From the NCBI GenBank assembly GCA_017554145.1, contig JAFZIZ010000005.1, positions 62,001 through 126,000 of the forward strand: DNA of 64,000 bases, in the 5' to 3' direction. A program made the position numbers and the translations under genes. The stretch comes from Prevotella sp. (GTDB lineage Bacteria; Bacteroidota; Bacteroidia; Bacteroidales; Bacteroidaceae). Positions 52,592 through 61,240 of the stretch are shown here, piece after piece. The notes beneath the pieces are model-generated. The model did no database searches and was not told where the DNA came from. It saw only the letters and a program-made list of their open reading frames with translations. Numbering within the stretch: the first letter of the stretch is position 1; each line of letters starts with the position of its first letter.

Positions 52592-53167
52592 TTAGAGATC
52601 GAACTTGTAACCTACAGAGAACAAGAATACGCTGTTCTTGCTGCTACCACCATCGAAGATATTGGTCAGACCCAACTGATAACGAGCGTCAATTACGAAG
52701 TCTGAGAACTCATAGGAGATTCCGAAAGGAATAGAGAGGTCAACTGACTTTCCACCATTGATATCAGCCTCATGCTTCTGACCTCCAGCTTCCTCCTTAT
52801 ATTTTCCACGAAGTTTGAAACCTGGCTGCAAACCTGCCTTAATAGCAAGACCTGGGATGACATAATAGTTAGCCAAAACGGGGATGTTCAGATAATCTAG
52901 ATTATAAGTAACATCAACACTATTTGAAGAGCCTTTAGCACCCTGCATAGAATAAATAAGGCCACCAGTCAAAGCAAACTGAGGAGCTAATACATACTCA
53001 ACCTCAGCACCTGCAGCCAAGCCTACTTTCATGTCCAAATTACCACCAGTAATAGTAGAAAGGGTCATACCAACCATCGGCTTTAAAGTCAAGCCACCTA
53101 CTGAACGCTGTGCACTTACTGTCAACGTTGCAATCATTGCGATTGCCAATAAAATAACTTTCTTCAT
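52592..53167 (-). CDS. Small outer-membrane beta-barrel (porin-family) protein
   Basis: A 191-residue protein with a signal peptide (MKKVILLAIAMIATLTVSAQ) and about eight amphipathic strands (LTLKPMVGMTLSTITGG, VGLAAGAEVEYVLAPQFALTGGLIYSM, FVIDARYQLGLTNIF). It ends in VGYKFDL, a C-terminal strand ending in a large hydrophobic residue as in outer-membrane barrels. The consensus promoter and the small size point to an abundant OmpA/OmpX-like barrel, but the function is unknown. It stands alone. Confidence 0.85.
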   Translation of the reverse strand: MKKVILLAIAMIATLTVSAQRSVGGLTLKPMVGMTLSTITGGNLDMKVGLAAGAEVEYVLAPQFALTGGLIYSMQGAKGSSNSVDVTYNLDYLNIPVLANYYVIPGLAIKAGLQPGFKLRGKYKEEAGGQKHEADINGGKSVDLSIPFGISYEFSDFVIDARYQLGLTNIFDGGSSKNSVFLFSVGYKFDL

Positions 53168-53367: not shown

Positions 53368-54126
53368 ATGAAAAGTACGTTTATTGCAGGACCATGTGTC
53401 ATTGAATCCACAGAACTGCTCAATACCGTAGCAGCCAAACTGGTGGAAATCAACAAGAAACTTGGAACTGACATCATATTCAAAGCCTCTTTCGACAAGG
53501 CTAACCGCACGTCAATCAGTTCTTTCCGCGGACCTGGTATTGACCATGGATTGCTGATGCTGAGTGATGTAAAACAGAAATATGGTCTTAAAATACTGAC
53601 TGATATCCACGAGGCATGGCAGGCTGAGCCGGCAGGTCAAGTAGTAGACATTCTTCAGATACCTGCCTTCCTCTGCCGACAGACTGATTTGCTGATTGCT
53701 GCAGCCAAGACAGGCAAGACGGTCAATATCAAGAAAGCGCAGTTCCTCAGTGGCAGTGACATGCGTTATCCTGTAGAAAAAGCAAGAGACGTTGGTGCTG
53801 CTGACGTATGGCTGACAGAACGCGGTAATATGATGGGGTATAACAACCTCGTGGTAGACTTCCGTAATATTCCTGACATGCTGGAGATTGTTCCTACCGT
53901 CATTATGGATTGTACGCATAGTGTCCAACGTCCTGGAGGTGCAGACGGGAAGACAGGAGGCGACCGTCGCTTCGTACCACAGATGGCATTAGCTGCTAAG
54001 GCTTTCGGGGCTACCGGTTGGTTCTTTGAAGTTCATCCGAATCCCGACCAAGGACTCAGTGATGCTGCCAACATGTTAGAACTAGATAAACTGGAAGGAC
54101 TGATAGAGAGAATCCTAAAGGAATGA
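53368..54126 (+). CDS. kdsA: 3-deoxy-8-phosphooctulonate synthase (KDO-8-P synthase)
   Basis: KdsA joins phosphoenolpyruvate and arabinose 5-phosphate to make KDO 8-phosphate for the lipopolysaccharide core. The 252-residue product has FIAGPCVIES at the N terminus, FKASFDKANRTSISSFRGPG, NIKKAQFLSG and FFEVHPNPDQGLSDAAN. Cys10 in GPC is the metal ligand of the metal-dependent class, in contrast to the Asn of the E. coli enzyme. The stop overlaps the kdsD start by four bases (ATGA), so substrate-supplying isomerase and synthase are coupled. Confidence 0.96.
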   Translation: MKSTFIAGPCVIESTELLNTVAAKLVEINKKLGTDIIFKASFDKANRTSISSFRGPGIDHGLLMLSDVKQKYGLKILTDIHEAWQAEPAGQVVDILQIPAFLCRQTDLLIAAAKTGKTVNIKKAQFLSGSDMRYPVEKARDVGAADVWLTERGNMMGYNNLVVDFRNIPDMLEIVPTVIMDCTHSVQRPGGADGKTGGDRRFVPQMALAAKAFGATGWFFEVHPNPDQGLSDAANMLELDKLEGLIERILKE

Positions 54127-55070
54127 CTGCAAGAGAATACGCCATACAATGTATCAAGGATGAGGCACAAGCAGTACTTGACCTCATACCAAAGATTGAC
54201 GATAATTTTGATCGTGCCATCGACCTGATGATGAATTGTCAGGGTAAGGTCATTGTGACGGGTGTGGGGAAGAGCGGACATATCGGTGCTAAAATTGCCG
54301 CCACTCTTGCATCCACAGGAACCCCTTCATTCTTCATCAATCCATTGGACGTGTTCCATGGTGACTTAGGGGTGATGTCCAAAGGAGACGTCGTTATTGC
54401 CATCTCTAACTCAGGACAGACGGACGAACTGCTCCGTTTCATCCCGATGGTACTCCACATGGAGATTCCTATCATTGCCATGAGTGGCAATCCACAGTCT
54501 CTGCTGGCGAAGTACTCTACCTGTCATTTGAATGTCAGCGTAAAGAAAGAGGCATGTCCGCTTAACCTTGCCCCGACAAGCAGTACTACTGCAACACTGG
54601 CGATGGGCGATGCATTAGCAGTAGCATTAATGGAAAAGCGTCATTTCCAGCCACAGGACTTTGCCATGTTCCATCCTGGCGGAGAAATTGGAAAGCGCCT
54701 GCTCACCACTGCTCAGGATGTCATGATTACAGAGAATTTGCCATTGCTATCTCCGGAAATGCATTTAGGAGAAGCCATTATCTTGGTCAGCAAGGGGAAA
54801 CTGGGACTTGGAGTTGCCGTTAAGGAAGACCGTATCGCTGGAATGATTACGGACGGAGATATCCGTCGTGCCATGGAGCAATGGCAAGCCGATTTCTTCA
54901 ACCGTATAGTAGACGACATCATGACACGTACGCCCAAGACGGTCACTCCTCAGACGAAAATCTCTGAGATACAGAAGATGATGAACAAATACAAAATACA
55001 TAATGTATTGGTGACGGACGACACCCACAAGCTACTGGGTATTGTCGACCGATATGCATGTATCCTATAA
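54123..55070 (+). CDS. kdsD: Arabinose-5-phosphate isomerase (KpsF/GutQ family)
   Basis: KdsD turns ribulose 5-phosphate into arabinose 5-phosphate, the KdsA substrate. The 315-residue product has an N-terminal SIS domain (about 35-180; VIVTGVGKSGHIGAKIAATLASTGTPS, HGDLGVM, ISNSGQTDELL). Two CBS domains follow (about 205-315; MITENLPLL, then MTRTPKTVTPQTKISEIQKMM). Length and order are those of the family. The next gene starts 28 bases downstream. Confidence 0.95.
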   Translation: MTAREYAIQCIKDEAQAVLDLIPKIDDNFDRAIDLMMNCQGKVIVTGVGKSGHIGAKIAATLASTGTPSFFINPLDVFHGDLGVMSKGDVVIAISNSGQTDELLRFIPMVLHMEIPIIAMSGNPQSLLAKYSTCHLNVSVKKEACPLNLAPTSSTTATLAMGDALAVALMEKRHFQPQDFAMFHPGGEIGKRLLTTAQDVMITENLPLLSPEMHLGEAIILVSKGKLGLGVAVKEDRIAGMITDGDIRRAMEQWQADFFNRIVDDIMTRTPKTVTPQTKISEIQKMMNKYKIHNVLVTDDTHKLLGIVDRYACIL

Positions 55071-55098: not shown

Positions 55099-58000
55099 AT
55101 GAAAGGACTGAAGAAAATATTATTAATGGTGATGCTGGCACTTCCACTGGCAGTAGCAGGTGTCTATCTGTTTAAAACACTGGATATCAAGAACGGACTT
55201 TCCAGTAGTCAGATCAACTGCATTCTCAAAGATGCACGTGGATATGTCTGGTTTGGAACACCTTCTGGACTTTACCGTTATGACGGCTATACCTTCAGGA
55301 ACTTCCAAAGTAACTCAAAAGACGGTTCCTCTCTTCCTGACAGCTACATTCTGAGTTTACAAGAATCGCTAGACGGCAACCTATGGGTACTGACATCAGC
55401 AGGCTATTGCGTCTACCACCCACAGACAGAAACCTTTGAACGTGACATGAAGCAGGTCTATGCCCGTATGGGTATTGAAGGACAACCTAATGTCGTTTAT
55501 ATTGACCGCCATAAGAACTTATGGGCAGCTATTCCGAACAAAGGTGTTGTTGCCTATAACATGCAACAACAATTACTTTATGAATTCGGTTATACCGACG
55601 ACAGTCATGGCGTCCCTCAAGGAAACATCTGTTCTATTAGTGAGTGTCGTGATGGTGCCATCATTGTCTATGATGACGGAAGAATGATCTGCTGTGATAT
55701 CATACACCAGCAGCATACCGTCTGGGCAACAGAGCATATCTCCCAAAACAAGCTTCGCAAGAGTCCTTCCTTAAAAGTCTTTGCTGACCAGAAGGACAAT
55801 ATATGGTTGTACGGACAGGGAACCCTCATGATGTATAATAAAAGTACTAACCAGTGGGACACAACAATCGGTAATTCGTTAGGTCTGACAAGCATTGCCG
55901 TAGACCATAGTGTCAACGGCATGGTAAGTGACAGCAATGGAAACATCTGGATTGGTACCGACCGTATGGGACTAATCCGTATGAATTCTGAAACGCATGA
56001 GATGGAGTTTGTACAACCAATTAGTGATAACAAGCAACAAACTCAGGAGACCATCGGAATACAAAGCGTCTATGTGGATGATACAGACCTTTTATGGGTA
56101 GGAACAGAGAAATCTGGTGTCGCTTTCTATGGTAATAACATCTATAAGTTCGAGGCATCGTTCTATGGTGATGTCACCGCCCTCGCACAAGACACAGAAG
56201 GTAAAATCTGGTATGGAACCAGTGACAAGGGAGTTGTTGGCTATGAGGGGCCTCTTGCCAGCCAGAAAGTTTCTTGTATGACGGCAACTACGGACGGAAG
56301 CATTTGGGTAGGGTCTCGCCAGAATGGTCTGACACGAATCAAAGGTGGTTCTTCACAAATCTTTTCTGCTGCAAGAGACAGTATGAAGACGCTGATTGAC
56401 GATCATATCAACGCCCTCACCCACGACCGAGCTGGAAACCTATGGATTGCAACCAATGGTGGTCTGCAAGTCTACAATCCTAAAATGAACACGTTCTCTT
56501 CTTACACCAGAGAAAACGGAATGCTGAATACCAATAATATCACCTGTCTCTTCTATGGGAAAAATAACATGTTATATGTCGGTACATCAGAAGGAATGGT
56601 CATGTTAAACCTCTCTAACCGGGAAAAGACCGTGCTGACAGGTAATTCCACTAACATTAACACATTTACCAACAACTATATCACTCAAATCTATGAAGAC
56701 TCCCGTGGTCTTATTTGGATTGGCACACGAGAAGGATTGAATGTTCTGAATATCATGAGTGATGCTCTGAACTATATCACGGAGAAGGACGGATTATGCA
56801 GTAACTCCATCTGCGGTATTACCGAAGACAAAAACAATAATATCTGGGTGACTACAAGTAATGGAGTCAGCCGTATTGTCATCCAACGAGCCCGAGATGA
56901 AGAAGATGGCAGTTTCGGATATGGTCTGTATAACTATAACATCAGTGATGGACTACAAAGTAACGAGTTCAACACTGGTGCCATTTTGAGGAAAACCGAT
57001 GGTGATGTAATCTTTGGAGGACTCTATGGTGTTAACTGGGTACGAAATGCAGGTAAAGTGGAACAGTCTTCTTTGCCTCGTGTAATGCTAACCCAACTAT
57101 TCATTGGAGAAGAAGAGATTATGACCGGGCATGAATATGACGGAAATGTCATCCTACCACAGGCACTCAATGAAAGCAGAAAGATAGAACTGAATAACAA
57201 TCAGAACTCCTTCACCATCAAATTTGCCGCTGGAAACTACAATCAGGGAGAACGATTGCTCTTCATGTACTGGATGGAAGGAAGGGATCATGACTGGCGT
57301 AATGGAGACGCTCTATTGCATGGTGTCAGGTTCCGCAACTTAAGCAGTGGCAATTATACCCTTCACGTGAAGGCTGTCAGTGCCGACGGCGCAGTAAGTA
57401 ATCAGGAACGTACACTGGATATTTTTATTGAACGCCCATGGTGGCTGACCTGGTGGATGCTCTCTGCGTATGTATTAATCGCCATTGTTATCTTAATCCT
57501 CTGGCGTTATGGTTATAAGAGATTCAAGAATTTCATGACCAGAAAGCGTACTGTTGTCAACGAACTAAAACGTCAACGTGAGGAAATCAAACTGACCAGT
57601 GATGAGTTGCGCCAGCCGATGGCTCGTATGACAACAATTATCGGAAACCTTGCAGAGAAAGAAAATGACTTGGAAGGACGTGAGCAATTGAACTCATTAC
57701 ACTTCCAGATGCTACAGATCATCACCCGAATCTCTGAGATGCAGACTATTTTGGAAAATCCAGAAGCAAAGGCGGAATCAACGGCAAAAGACCGTCTGGA
57801 ACTCAACGACCAAGGAGAAATCACTCTTCCTGCCATTGCCAGTGCAGAGCTTTCTGCAGATATCCAGCCGTTGCGTTTGGACAAGAAGACACAGAAGTTC
57901 AACGTCGTATTTATCGACGACAATCAGGAATTCTGTAACTTCATGAATGCCCACTTGCGTGAGATTTATGATTTCCACGTCTACAACGATGTCAAGATTG

Positions 58001-58857
58001 CCCTCGAAGACATTGAGTCTATGATGGCTGACCTCGTCATTTGTAAACAGGTCATGAAACGCATGACAGGTAGTGACCTGTGTAACAAACTCAAGTCCAA
58101 CCCAAGGACTGAGAAGATCAAGTTTGTCCTAATGACCGATACCGTATTAACCCCTGAGATGATGACAGACTTGAATATCACGATGGCTGCTGATGACTAT
58201 CTGGCTAAACCTTTCAATGTCCAAGAAGCTGTTATGCGTTTCAACAAACTGATGGGATTAGGTCCTGTTGATGTAGAGCAGAATGTTATTGAAGGTCATG
58301 AGACACGTAAGTTGGAAGGTCATAACGCAAGTATGACGACTGCTACGATGGTCTATGACGACGAGGGTGCTAAGGTGGTAGACAACAATACTGAAGAGCT
58401 TCAGCAAGAAGAGCAACAGCAGGAACAACAACCTGTTGAAAACGCACCAACCACACAAGGCGATATGCTGGCAACCCAGTTCTATGGAGAAGACGAGACC
58501 GTTGGCAATTACTCTATGAGTAACATGATGGATCAGCGTCTGATGAAAAACGTTGAGCAGTATGTCCTGCAGAATATGAGTCGTGGACAGATTAGTTTGG
58601 AAGAGATGGCATCGGCGATGGGTATGGGTCGTGTTCCGTTCTTCCATAAGATTCGCAATATCACGACAAAGACGCCTGCAGAGATTGTACGTGAGATTAG
58701 ACTGAAACATGCATGCATACTCCTAACCAAGACGAATATTAACATGAGTGAGCTTGCCATCAATATTGGATTCTCTACCGCGGAGAACTTCATCAATATC
58801 TTCAAGGAGAAATTTGGCATGACACCGCTTGAGTATCGTCTTAAGAATAAAAAGTAA
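55099..58857 (+). CDS. HTCS-like membrane regulator with AraC domain but no phosphotransfer residues
   Basis: A 1252-residue regulator. An N-terminal signal/anchor is followed by periplasmic propeller repeats (about 28-660; DARGYVWFGTPSGLYRYDGYTF, RGLIWIGTREGLNVL), a Y_Y_Y domain (about 685-775) and one membrane helix (about 783-805). A HisKA-like coiled coil (about 815-885), a receiver-like domain (about 932-1050), a Gln-rich linker and a C-terminal AraC HTH (about 1140-1252) follow. In the H-box the His is Asp835 (SDELRQP instead of SHELRTP). The HATPase domain is absent, with only about 50 residues in its place. In the receiver the phospho-acceptor Asp is Lys983 (LVICKQVMK). The gene follows kdsD by 28 bases, so it may control envelope genes. 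Confidence 0.9.
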   Translation: MKGLKKILLMVMLALPLAVAGVYLFKTLDIKNGLSSSQINCILKDARGYVWFGTPSGLYRYDGYTFRNFQSNSKDGSSLPDSYILSLQESLDGNLWVLTSAGYCVYHPQTETFERDMKQVYARMGIEGQPNVVYIDRHKNLWAAIPNKGVVAYNMQQQLLYEFGYTDDSHGVPQGNICSISECRDGAIIVYDDGRMICCDIIHQQHTVWATEHISQNKLRKSPSLKVFADQKDNIWLYGQGTLMMYNKSTNQWDTTIGNSLGLTSIAVDHSVNGMVSDSNGNIWIGTDRMGLIRMNSETHEMEFVQPISDNKQQTQETIGIQSVYVDDTDLLWVGTEKSGVAFYGNNIYKFEASFYGDVTALAQDTEGKIWYGTSDKGVVGYEGPLASQKVSCMTATTDGSIWVGSRQNGLTRIKGGSSQIFSAARDSMKTLIDDHINALTHDRAGNLWIATNGGLQVYNPKMNTFSSYTRENGMLNTNNITCLFYGKNNMLYVGTSEGMVMLNLSNREKTVLTGNSTNINTFTNNYITQIYEDSRGLIWIGTREGLNVLNIMSDALNYITEKDGLCSNSICGITEDKNNNIWVTTSNGVSRIVIQRARDEEDGSFGYGLYNYNISDGLQSNEFNTGAILRKTDGDVIFGGLYGVNWVRNAGKVEQSSLPRVMLTQLFIGEEEIMTGHEYDGNVILPQALNESRKIELNNNQNSFTIKFAAGNYNQGERLLFMYWMEGRDHDWRNGDALLHGVRFRNLSSGNYTLHVKAVSADGAVSNQERTLDIFIERPWWLTWWMLSAYVLIAIVILILWRYGYKRFKNFMTRKRTVVNELKRQREEIKLTSDELRQPMARMTTIIGNLAEKENDLEGREQLNSLHFQMLQIITRISEMQTILENPEAKAESTAKDRLELNDQGEITLPAIASAELSADIQPLRLDKKTQKFNVVFIDDNQEFCNFMNAHLREIYDFHVYNDVKIALEDIESMMADLVICKQVMKRMTGSDLCNKLKSNPRTEKIKFVLMTDTVLTPEMMTDLNITMAADDYLAKPFNVQEAVMRFNKLMGLGPVDVEQNVIEGHETRKLEGHNASMTTATMVYDDEGAKVVDNNTEELQQEEQQQEQQPVENAPTTQGDMLATQFYGEDETVGNYSMSNMMDQRLMKNVEQYVLQNMSRGQISLEEMASAMGMGRVPFFHKIRNITTKTPAEIVREIRLKHACILLTKTNINMSELAINIGFSTAENFINIFKEKFGMTPLEYRLKNKK

Positions 58858-58858
58858 T

Positions 58859-60118
58859 ATGCTGCGAGTCTTTATCATCGCATTACTGGCAATTATATCA
58901 CAATCAGCGAGCCCTCAAACGAGCGACTCGCTGATTGTTCGTACATTACGTGCCAAAGGTATCACTTTTTCAAATGATAATAAGGTGACACTCTTACTAT
59001 CCGGACAAGCCAAATTCGATGATATGTTTTGTGCCATCCGACAGGCCAAGAGCAGTATCCATCTCGAGTACTTTAACTTCCGCAACGACTCCATCGCCTC
59101 TTTGCTCTTCGACCTACTTCGGGAGAAACGGAAAGAAGGAGTAGAGGTAAGAGCAATGTTTGACGGTTTTGGTAACGACTCCAACAACCAGCCTTTAAAG
59201 AAGTATCATCTGAAGGCACTGCGTGACGACAGTATCGACATTGTGGAATACGACCCTATCCGTTTCCCTTGGGTTAATAAGATATTCGGTCGTGATCACC
59301 GTAAGATTGTCGTCATCGACGGACAAATAGCCTATACAGGTGGAATGAATGTCGCTGACTATTATATCAAAGGTACTGAACAGGTCGGTGAGTGGCGTGA
59401 TATGCATTGCCGCATTGAAGGCGATGCCGTCAACGAACTCCAGAAGATATTCATAAGAATATGGAACCGTGTGACAGGCGAGAATGTCAGCGGTATGAAA
59501 TACTATCGCGGAGGAACGTTGACGAAGTTTGAGGGACTCAAACCCGATACGACGTCTACGGCAGGGCAAAAGATGGTGGGTATCATCAACCGTGAACCTC
59601 ACTACACACCAGCAATCATGCGCGATTTCTATATCAATGCCATTGATCAGGCACAAGACTCCATCAAGATTATCAACCCCTACTTCACGCTGATACCTAA
59701 AGTGACACGTGCCCTGACACGTGCCATTCGCCGTGGCGTGAAAGTAGAGATTATGCTGTCTGCCAAGAGTGATATCCCTCTGACACCCGACTGCGCCTAT
59801 TACCAGGCACACAAACTTATGAAGCGAGGTGCTATCGTTTGGATGTATAAACCCGGTTTCCATCATTCCAAGATTATGATGGTCGATGGACTCTACTGTA
59901 CTGTCGGGAGTACGAACCTTGATGCACGCAGTCTGAAATGCGACTTTGAAGAGAATGCCGTGATTATCGATAAGGCAACCACCAAGGAACTGGATGATAT
60001 GTTTGCCCGTGACACACAAAAGAGTTTCCTGCTGACACCCGAATCATGGGATGAGTTCCGTACTGGTTGGCAGAAGTTCCGCGGCTGGTTCGCCCATCTG
60101 TTAGCCCCCTTCCTATAG
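58859..60118 (+). CDS. Phospholipase D-family protein, cardiolipin synthase-like
   Basis: A 419-residue protein starting one base after the regulator stop (MLRVFIIALLAIISQSASPQ). An earlier ATG would lie inside the regulator. Both HKD motifs are complete: HRKIVVIDGQIAYTGGMN and HSKIMMVDGLYCTVGSTN. Unlike E. coli ClsA it has a single N-terminal signal-like helix and not two membrane helices, so the catalytic part may face the periplasm. Cardiolipin or another phosphatidyl transfer is likely; a nuclease or phospholipase cannot be excluded. The acyltransferase gene follows after three bases. Confidence 0.88.
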   Translation: MLRVFIIALLAIISQSASPQTSDSLIVRTLRAKGITFSNDNKVTLLLSGQAKFDDMFCAIRQAKSSIHLEYFNFRNDSIASLLFDLLREKRKEGVEVRAMFDGFGNDSNNQPLKKYHLKALRDDSIDIVEYDPIRFPWVNKIFGRDHRKIVVIDGQIAYTGGMNVADYYIKGTEQVGEWRDMHCRIEGDAVNELQKIFIRIWNRVTGENVSGMKYYRGGTLTKFEGLKPDTTSTAGQKMVGIINREPHYTPAIMRDFYINAIDQAQDSIKIINPYFTLIPKVTRALTRAIRRGVKVEIMLSAKSDIPLTPDCAYYQAHKLMKRGAIVWMYKPGFHHSKIMMVDGLYCTVGSTNLDARSLKCDFEENAVIIDKATTKELDDMFARDTQKSFLLTPESWDEFRTGWQKFRGWFAHLLAPFL

Positions 60119-60121
60119 TAC

Positions 60122-61240
60122 ATGCAACGCAATACTGTCATCTCTATCTGTAAGGCACTCGCCATCATCCTGATGGTCATTGGACATGCCGATGCACCAG
60201 ACGTGCTCAGCGCGTTCCTCTATGAATTCCACATGCCCGTATTCTTCATCACCGCAGGTTATTTCTTTTCCTTGCGTTATCTCAACGACGAGGCAACGTT
60301 TGTAAAGAAGAGATTCAAAGGGCTATACGTCCCTTTCCTTACATGGGCAGTATTCTTCCTGCTTATCCACAACTGGATGTTTGACTTGGGCATCCTCAAC
60401 GAGCAATATGGCAACTGGTCAGGCGGTGTCACTCACCCCTACTCTTGGCATCAGATGCAACAGAACTTCTGGAACATGGTGACAGCGATGGGTGGTTACG
60501 ACCAGTTCCTATGCGGTGCCTTCTGGTTTTTCCGTGGTCTCTTGGTAGCCAGTATCGCCTACCTTATTATATATAAAGGTATAGACTATCTGGTGAGGAA
60601 GTCGGAGAAATGGTCTGGCTATCGCGAGACCATCACACCGATTGGTGTCTGTGTGCTGATGCTGCTGATTGCCGCCTGGAAGACATCCGAAGGACTGCGC
60701 ATCATCACGCTCATCCAAGGTGGTTACCGTGAAATCATGGGCACATTCTTTTTCGGTATCGGTTTCCTATTCCGAAAAGGCGAACAACACTATCGTGCTA
60801 CGTGGTGGATGACCATTCTCTTTGCCATCATTGTCTACCTCTTCTCTAAGTATCTCACTGCCAACATGAACTGGCGCTCCACCTATGTTCAGTTCCTCTC
60901 ACTCCCCATTCCTGCCATCTGCGGTTTCCTGATGACGTATAATATCGCACGCTGGTTGGATGGCCACGACGGATGGGTGAAACGTTTTCTCGTGTTCTGT
61001 GGTGACAACACCCTACCCATCTTTGTCTTCCATATCATCAGTTATAAGGTAGTAAGCCTGCTGAAGATATGGTATTATGATATGGACTTCGCACAGATAG
61101 GATGCCACATGGTGATTCATGAGCACGCCAAGGAAGATTGGTTCTGGGTATTATATACTATTGCCGGTGTCGGTATTCCGTTGGGATGGACGTGGTGCTA
61201 TCAACGCATCAAGAAGCGACTAAAGCCCGCATCAGCCTAA
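60122..61240 (+). CDS. Acyltransferase family 3 membrane protein
   Basis: A 372-residue protein with about ten membrane helices of the acyltransferase-3 (OafA/NodX-like) family. It begins ISICKALAIILMVIGHADAP, which has the conserved helix-1 His, then FLYEFHMPVFFITAGYFFSL with the conserved motif in helix 2. Such enzymes transfer acetyl or similar groups to surface sugars, for example of lipopolysaccharide. It is the last gene of the kdsA group and its 3' end overlaps the converging TPR gene by 32 bases. Confidence 0.88.
   Translation: MQRNTVISICKALAIILMVIGHADAPDVLSAFLYEFHMPVFFITAGYFFSLRYLNDEATFVKKRFKGLYVPFLTWAVFFLLIHNWMFDLGILNEQYGNWSGGVTHPYSWHQMQQNFWNMVTAMGGYDQFLCGAFWFFRGLLVASIAYLIIYKGIDYLVRKSEKWSGYRETITPIGVCVLMLLIAAWKTSEGLRIITLIQGGYREIMGTFFFGIGFLFRKGEQHYRATWWMTILFAIIVYLFSKYLTANMNWRSTYVQFLSLPIPAICGFLMTYNIARWLDGHDGWVKRFLVFCGDNTLPIFVFHIISYKVVSLLKIWYYDMDFAQIGCHMVIHEHAKEDWFWVLYTIAGVGIPLGWTWCYQRIKKRLKPASA

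Follow-up and report, generated by a model that had tools for sequence, protein, structure and literature searches.

How can a regulator laid out like a phosphorelay pass on a signal once every part that transfers phosphate has been lost? The question is raised by a gene in a 64,000-nucleotide stretch of Prevotella sp. DNA (contig JAFZIZ010000005.1, positions 62,001 to 126,000; this whole stretch is called the window, and positions are counted from its first letter). The gene encodes a membrane sensor, found in Prevotella from rumen and gut, with the layout of a hybrid two-component system (HTCS) regulator. Our analysis indicates that this protein is probably a one-component transcription factor, tethered to the membrane, derived from an HTCS and independent of phosphorylation.

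An HTCS layout without its phosphotransfer parts

A first-pass annotation, made from the sequence alone, had proposed that the protein keeps the full HTCS layout of propeller, Y_Y_Y domain, membrane helix, receiver and AraC domain. Pfam agrees, placing Reg_prop in eight stretches, Y_Y_Y at residues 713-777, Response_reg at 936-1044 and HTH_18 at 1170-1247; the membrane helix was recognized by eye. The closest solved structure by sequence is an HTCS sensor (4a2l, E 2.5e-68). The gene and its parts are the following.

55099..58857, + strand: whole gene, a kinase-less HTCS-derived membrane regulator of 1252 aa (open reading frame, translation, Pfam)
55168..57198, + strand: periplasmic Reg_prop propeller region, about residues 24-700 (eight Pfam stretches, PDB 4a2l; borders by inspection)
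57235..57429, + strand: Y_Y_Y domain, residues 713-777 (Pfam)
57439..57522, + strand: transmembrane segment, about residues 781-808 (recognized by eye as a hydrophobic stretch)
57586..57756, + strand: pseudo-DHp hairpin, about residues 830-886, with Asp835 replacing the phosphorylated His
57901..58254, + strand: pseudo-receiver, about residues 935-1052, with Lys983 replacing the phospho-Asp; T1013, Y1034 and K1037 kept
58288..58344, + strand: motif IEGxETRxLExxNxSMTTA, residues 1064-1082, in the receiver-AraC linker (pLDDT <50)
58522..58851, + strand: AraC-type DNA-binding domain, about residues 1142-1251 (Pfam HTH_18)

Both substitutions named in the first-pass annotation are correct at the codon level: GAT at 57601 encodes Asp835 at the H-box, and AAA at 58045 encodes Lys983 at the phospho-site of the receiver. 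The Pfam scan of the window protein listed neither HisKA nor HATPase_c at E<=1, a threshold at which the HMMER filters discard most matches above ~0.1. The receiver acids D940 and D941 are retained together with T1013, Y1034 and K1037. The expectation that such a receiver still folds is supported by fold comparison (VIA-align 2), in which the matches listed cover the receiver part (model residues ~132-262, in one row to 346).

The H-box region had been described as a coil. The region is there, but in the structure model it forms two helices, 799-853 and 858-886, so that it is modelled as a DHp-like helical hairpin and not a bare coil. Sequence comparison points the same way. HisKA was weakly matched in 15 of 24 cytoplasmic parts from the family (best E 0.0045, below the Pfam cut-off) and in a sister protein, L188 (E 0.0078), and hhalign against the canonical HTCS DHp set the S-D of the family over S-H across 39 columns (E 6.7e-05, probability 63.7%). 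The region thus has HisKA/DHp homology with the His lost, as in a pseudo-histidine kinase, although the signals are weak. Likewise, a receiver fold without the phospho-Asp makes the next domain a pseudo-receiver, or aspartate-less receiver (ALR).

The loss is fixed across the lineage

The orthologue set consisted of 105 frames scoring >1000 bits, from which 8 with identical last 900 residues were removed to give 97; four loci fetched later (L192-L195) were left out of the counts. The H-box position holds Asp in 81 orthologues, Glu in 14 and Asn in 2, and His in none. The phospho-site is Lys in 96 (codons AAG 65, AAA 31) and Met in one (L160), and never Asp. In 18 canonical HTCS rows used for comparison the phospho-site is Asp in 18/18, and the H-box pattern was found in all rows except L106.

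The absence of the ATPase domain is equally consistent. The H-box site and the first pocket acid are separated by 103-108 residues in 97/97 orthologues, against 254-363 in the 18 canonical proteins; therefore there is no room for the domain in any of the 97. HATPase_c was also not among the 25 of 43 Pfam families shown for the 24 cytoplasmic parts. The remaining receiver sites are largely preserved: the first pocket acid is Asp in 97/97, the Thr is kept in 96, the Tyr at the switch position in 94 and the Lys in 97. The earlier claim that the pocket residues stay holds for the first acid, the Thr and the Lys; it does not hold for the second acid, where Asp is found in only 63 and the rest have Ser (18), Asn (12), Thr (3) or Lys (1).

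Phosphotransfer is therefore excluded within the chain, which has neither ATPase nor His, and at the receiver, which has no Asp, and this state is fixed in the lineage. A kinase supplied in trans was considered and rejected for the phospho-Asp route, since Lys983 cannot be phosphorylated as an Asp; such a kinase might still act on other residues. Among the 97 we encountered neither an intact homologue at the same locus nor a sign of sequence error, the two findings that the first-pass annotation had named as fatal to its proposal. What it observed in one protein is more general, and holds for the whole lineage.

In the genus of the window a match at E<=1e-150 was found in 78/200 sampled genomes, and in 22/85 of the more complete ones. 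Matches of >=59% identity were confined to this genus in two family samples (121 and 399 genomes), where the others listed reached <=39%, and to the window's own genome in an order sample (295 genomes); these samples overlap and cover part of the available genomes. In a scan of public genomes, 23 relatives of full or nearly full length, 57-84% identical, came from records labelled Prevotella, Prevotellaceae, Bacteroidales or Xylanibacter, and a next tier stood at 20-28%. This was a single run with six peptide patterns of the query, giving the best 80 of 101 relatives, and the sharp drop in identity is partly an artefact of the pattern-based method. Isolate and metagenome-assembled genome (MAG) records show the same architecture.

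The window's genome also carries a canonical HTCS (L004), ~22% identical to the window protein. On its contig 3 an 818-aa protein (L005) combines Reg_prop repeats with an AraC HTH_18 domain, and neither a receiver nor a kinase was matched in it at E<=0.01; it is a further one-component design. Two neighbouring propeller proteins lie on contig 14 (L002, L003); one has Y_Y_Y without a signalling domain match, the other HATPase_c without a HisKA match.

Selection maintains the altered domains

We compared conservation along the protein. Mean major-residue frequency is 0.81 in the pseudo-DHp, 0.69 in the pseudo-receiver and 0.81 in the AraC domain, and falls to 0.46 in the receiver-AraC linker; the largest share of near-invariant columns belongs to the pseudo-DHp. 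Within the pseudo-receiver, the pocket and the beta4, beta5 and alpha5 parts are strongly conserved. The linker, otherwise variable, contains the motif IEGxETRxLExxNxSMTTA, each fixed position of which is kept in 82-96 of the 97.

The proportion of nonsynonymous differences (pN) is 0.046 in the pseudo-DHp, 0.066 in the pseudo-receiver and 0.038 in the AraC domain, with synonymous proportions (pS) of 0.66-0.68 (62 pairs, 37 rows). The propeller (pN 0.065) and Y_Y_Y (0.055) behave similarly, pN being far below pS in every domain. Synonymous divergence (dS) is saturated (pS ~0.64-0.72), so that dN/dS values are indicative only, though the constraint is clear. By these measures purifying selection acts on both the hairpin and the receiver, which argues that they represent neither decay nor an assembly error.

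In Bacteroides HTCS proteins, an S/CHIP-DK contact between receiver (REC) and AraC domain restrains DNA binding until phosphorylation (PMC11253607). According to the same source this lock is conserved in most, not all, HTCS proteins, and its reported 39-residue D-K spacing, by which we placed the motif, fits D1145 and K1184. The Pro of S/CHIP is replaced by Lys in 92 of the 97 orthologues, and the His is kept in one. Judged from these residues, the S/CHIP part of the inhibitory lock is lost and the complete S/CHIP-DK signature is absent.

The regulator sits in a probable envelope-gene operon

The neighbouring genes suggest what such a regulator might control.

53368..54126, + strand: kdsA, 3-deoxy-8-phosphooctulonate synthase, at the head of the probable operon (NCBIfam)
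54123..55070, + strand: kdsD-type sugar-phosphate isomerase of the KpsF/GutQ family (NCBIfam TIGR00393 above cut-off; KdsD equivalog model below cut-off)
58859..60118, + strand: PLD-type cardiolipin-synthase-like gene (Pfam PLDc_2; TIGR04265 276 bits vs 290 cut-off)
60122..61240, + strand: Acyl_transf_3 protein, a downstream neighbour that some of the related loci lack

The kdsA and kdsD frames of the window overlap, 28 bp separate kdsD from the regulator, and one base past the regulator's stop there is an ATG for the PLD-type gene; given this overlap and these short gaps, a single operon is likely. The arrangement is widespread: kdsD lies <=200 bp upstream of the regulator in 61/64 loci (55/58 distinct by protein), and the PLD-type gene <=300 bp downstream in 64/64 (58/58 distinct). 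Of the three kdsD exceptions one is at a contig end (L039); in the others, L177 (4408-6277) and L048, psd, pssA and a DUF4834 gene lie upstream of the regulator, with a cardiolipin-synthase-like gene still downstream (family tests for psd, pssA and DUF4834 were run on L177 only). In 13 examined genomes of the same genus without the regulator, kdsD adjoins the PLD-type gene, the match borders being 9-234 bp apart.

The PLD-type gene also follows the regulator in the kinase-less relatives L186 and L188, in the latter with a XylE-like sugar porter between them, and lies ~9 kb off in G090 (L187). It was not seen in the fetched stretches around L189, L190 and L216-L224. A conserved TATCTTTGC-like box stands upstream of kdsA. 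The putative targets of the regulator are likely to be the envelope genes, kdsA-kdsD and cardiolipin synthase, and not a polysaccharide utilization locus.

Between kdsA and an mscS-like gene, the window encodes a small protein resembling an outer-membrane beta-barrel (52592-53167, - strand); this gene and the mscS-like gene were both named by eye. In 12 close relatives the mscS-like match ends ~100 bp before kdsA.

A proposed docking switch in place of phosphotransfer

Signalling without phosphorylation by this lineage is well supported by the sequence comparisons. The first-pass annotation had gone further, to a direct phosphorylation-free link from a periplasmic ligand to the DNA-binding domain. 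Its phosphorylation-free half is well supported, with no His, no Asp and no ATPase room in any orthologue; the direct link is an inference, and a rigid push is unlikely, because low-confidence linkers of ~30-45 and ~85 residues separate hairpin, receiver and AraC domain in the structure model. Rigid coupling from membrane to AraC domain is unsupported on these grounds, and the long disordered linkers favour a docking switch.

In such a switch, a dimer of propeller and Y_Y_Y domains would sense a putative periplasmic ligand. The membrane helix, continuing into the pseudo-DHp hairpin, would maintain the dimer and shift conformation with the ligand. This shift may then alter the docking contact of the pseudo-receiver, presumably through its conserved beta4, beta5 and alpha5 parts, and the altered docking could free two AraC domains or pair them on DNA. 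Lys983 and its counterparts probably fix the charge of the pocket without metal or phosphate.

Several observations weigh against this picture. The alpha1 helix of a receiver is a usual kinase-docking face, and here alpha1 is variable (0.59), which speaks against classical DHp docking. With its long low-confidence linkers and a pTM of 0.34, the model leaves domain placement unpredicted. The D of the lock is kept in 97/97 orthologues and its K, as K or R, in 96/97, and part of the REC-AraC contact may therefore survive. Canonical relatives close to the family are already variable at S/C and H and keep the Pro; because they had loosened beforehand, Pro-to-Lys is the only lock change specific to the lineage. 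Finally, visual inspection of 13 sequences upstream of kdsA gave no clear direct-repeat operator.

We then weighed other explanations. The pseudo-receiver might itself sense a cytoplasmic ligand or protein and integrate internal with periplasmic signals. Ligand-binding pseudo-receivers are reported (PMC12632262), and the strong conservation of pocket, beta4, beta5 and alpha5 parts would suit such a role; the same conservation is equally explained by folding or dimerization, and we regard this explanation as unlikely.

The pseudo-DHp could also heterodimerize with an intact HTCS or another kinase, making the protein a brake or scaffold comparable to DivL, a pseudo-histidine kinase that regulates CckA (PMC9430884). 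This idea draws on the concentration of near-invariant columns in the hairpin and on the presence of the canonical L004 in the same genome. However, the AraC domain, unneeded by a pure modulator, is as well conserved as any part; L004 is only ~22% identical to the protein; and no kinase gene was seen among the gene's neighbours, the window not having been searched for one. A modulator therefore seems rather improbable.

We give about as little credit to a constitutive DNA binder whose sensor serves as a mere membrane anchor and whose activity is governed by its expression level, a mode put forward for certain atypical response regulators (PMC12632262). The lost S/CHIP lock and residence in a probable operon with housekeeping genes are in keeping with it, but an anchor would not need the purifying selection recorded on the propeller and Y_Y_Y.

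A decaying HTCS remnant, pseudogene or assembly artefact, which the patchy presence within the genus might suggest, is effectively refuted by 97 agreeing orthologues, by frames of 1251-1366 residues in 94 of them (the other three having 985, 1148 and 1176), by pN far below pS everywhere and by the agreement of isolates with MAGs.

Kinase loss in HTCS lineages

To place the docking-switch protein among its relatives, we built a quick tree of 41 proteins with the hairpin and receiver columns excluded, using seven Prevotella rows. These rows group with two Glu-bearing relatives (L187, L188; support 100). A wider clade adds eight more kinase-less proteins, one with Asp (L186) and seven with Ser, giving 17 rows with a Shimodaira-Hasegawa-like support (SH-aLRT) of 94, below the starred level. 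The phospho-site in this kinase-less clade is thus Asp, Ser, Glu or Lys. Two further kinase-less groups stand elsewhere in the tree, L189/L190, which have no receiver match, and L223/L224, and kinase presence maps as three changes. A single origin of all 21 kinase-less rows was rejected (approximately unbiased test, p-AU 7.75e-102). On this tree kinase loss has recurred in other HTCS lineages. It would also have preceded the loss of the Asp, because L186 keeps the Asp without a kinase.

Some relatives have been reduced differently. The seven Ser-bearing proteins (L216-L222), from another genus, leave just 39-44 residues between the H-box position and that of the receiver, and therefore have no DHp hairpin. 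L223 (6930-9956) and L224 are propeller-Y_Y_Y-AraC proteins of ~1010 aa, an independent and more reduced HTCS derivative; Pfam found no DHp, kinase or receiver match in L223, and L224 is similar in appearance. The converse is seen in L225 (6251-10219; by Pfam) and L226 (by sequence), HTCS-like proteins with a kinase and no receiver ahead of AraC, that is, a kinase without a phospho-acceptor.

A tentative history, which we hold with less than even confidence, begins with loss of the kinase in one HTCS lineage. The phospho-site, now idle, would then have changed to Lys, Glu or Ser in separate descendants, with the receiver retained as a docking switch and, where Lys or Glu arose, the hairpin retained as well. 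From polysaccharide loci the Prevotella branch would have moved to envelope-building operons (kdsA-kdsD or psd-pssA, always just 5' of a cardiolipin-synthase-like gene), tying a periplasmic envelope signal to transcription without phosphate.

Relation to known systems

The family forms a natural series: within a single architecture that has no kinase, the phospho-site carries Asp, Glu, Ser or Lys, and intact HTCS relatives stand alongside. Signalling through the HTCS scaffold without a kinase is therefore directly testable. The family also calls for caution, since annotation as HTCS-like need not imply phosphorylation, and it points to an envelope operon, not glycan use, as the setting of an HTCS derivative. 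Membrane regulators without a kinase are already known, as are pseudo-receivers; an HTCS lineage lacking both the His and the phospho-Asp was not found in searches of the open-licence literature.

With working HTCS proteins such as BT4663 and BT4124 the window protein shares, in one chain, the Reg_prop/Y_Y_Y sensor, membrane helix, DHp-like hairpin, receiver and AraC domain. It differs in lacking the HATPase, the His, the phospho-Asp and the S/CHIP half of the lock, and in its envelope-gene operon. It is HTCS-derived, but does not have what defines a working HTCS. SusR, to our knowledge, has no kinase domain. HTCS sensors of this type are reported to bind oligosaccharides (PMC3878776), and HTCS signalling to proceed by a ligand-induced change inside the dimer (PMC11253607). 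SusR-like regulators combine periplasmic sensing and gene activation in one protein (PMC3878776), as the window protein would. It differs from them by its AraC (HTH_18) domain, the DNA-binding part of SusR being described in that source as unlike that of other known factors, and by its inherited pseudo-DHp and pseudo-receiver.

Phospho-Asp is reported lost in 2.0% of sampled receivers, and His in 0.9% of HisKA domains (PMC12632262). Aspartate-less receivers such as RitR and HP1043 likewise keep the receiver fold without the phospho-Asp, with first acid and Lys kept and a variable second acid; Lys at the phospho-site is rare among them, Arg, Lys and His together accounting for 4% of their substitutions (PMC4395418). 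Here the Lys site lies within a membrane sensor chain beside a pseudo-DHp. A 2025 review describes the on-off switching of pseudo-receivers as a mystery (PMC12632262). Membrane-bound one-component regulators with two-component domains have been catalogued as hybrid transmembrane transcription regulators (TTRs; PMC10269533). The window protein would fit that definition, its DNA-binding domain and two-component core domain being assigned by Pfam and its membrane segment by eye only; a kinase-dead HTCS lineage is not described in the text of the survey that was consulted.

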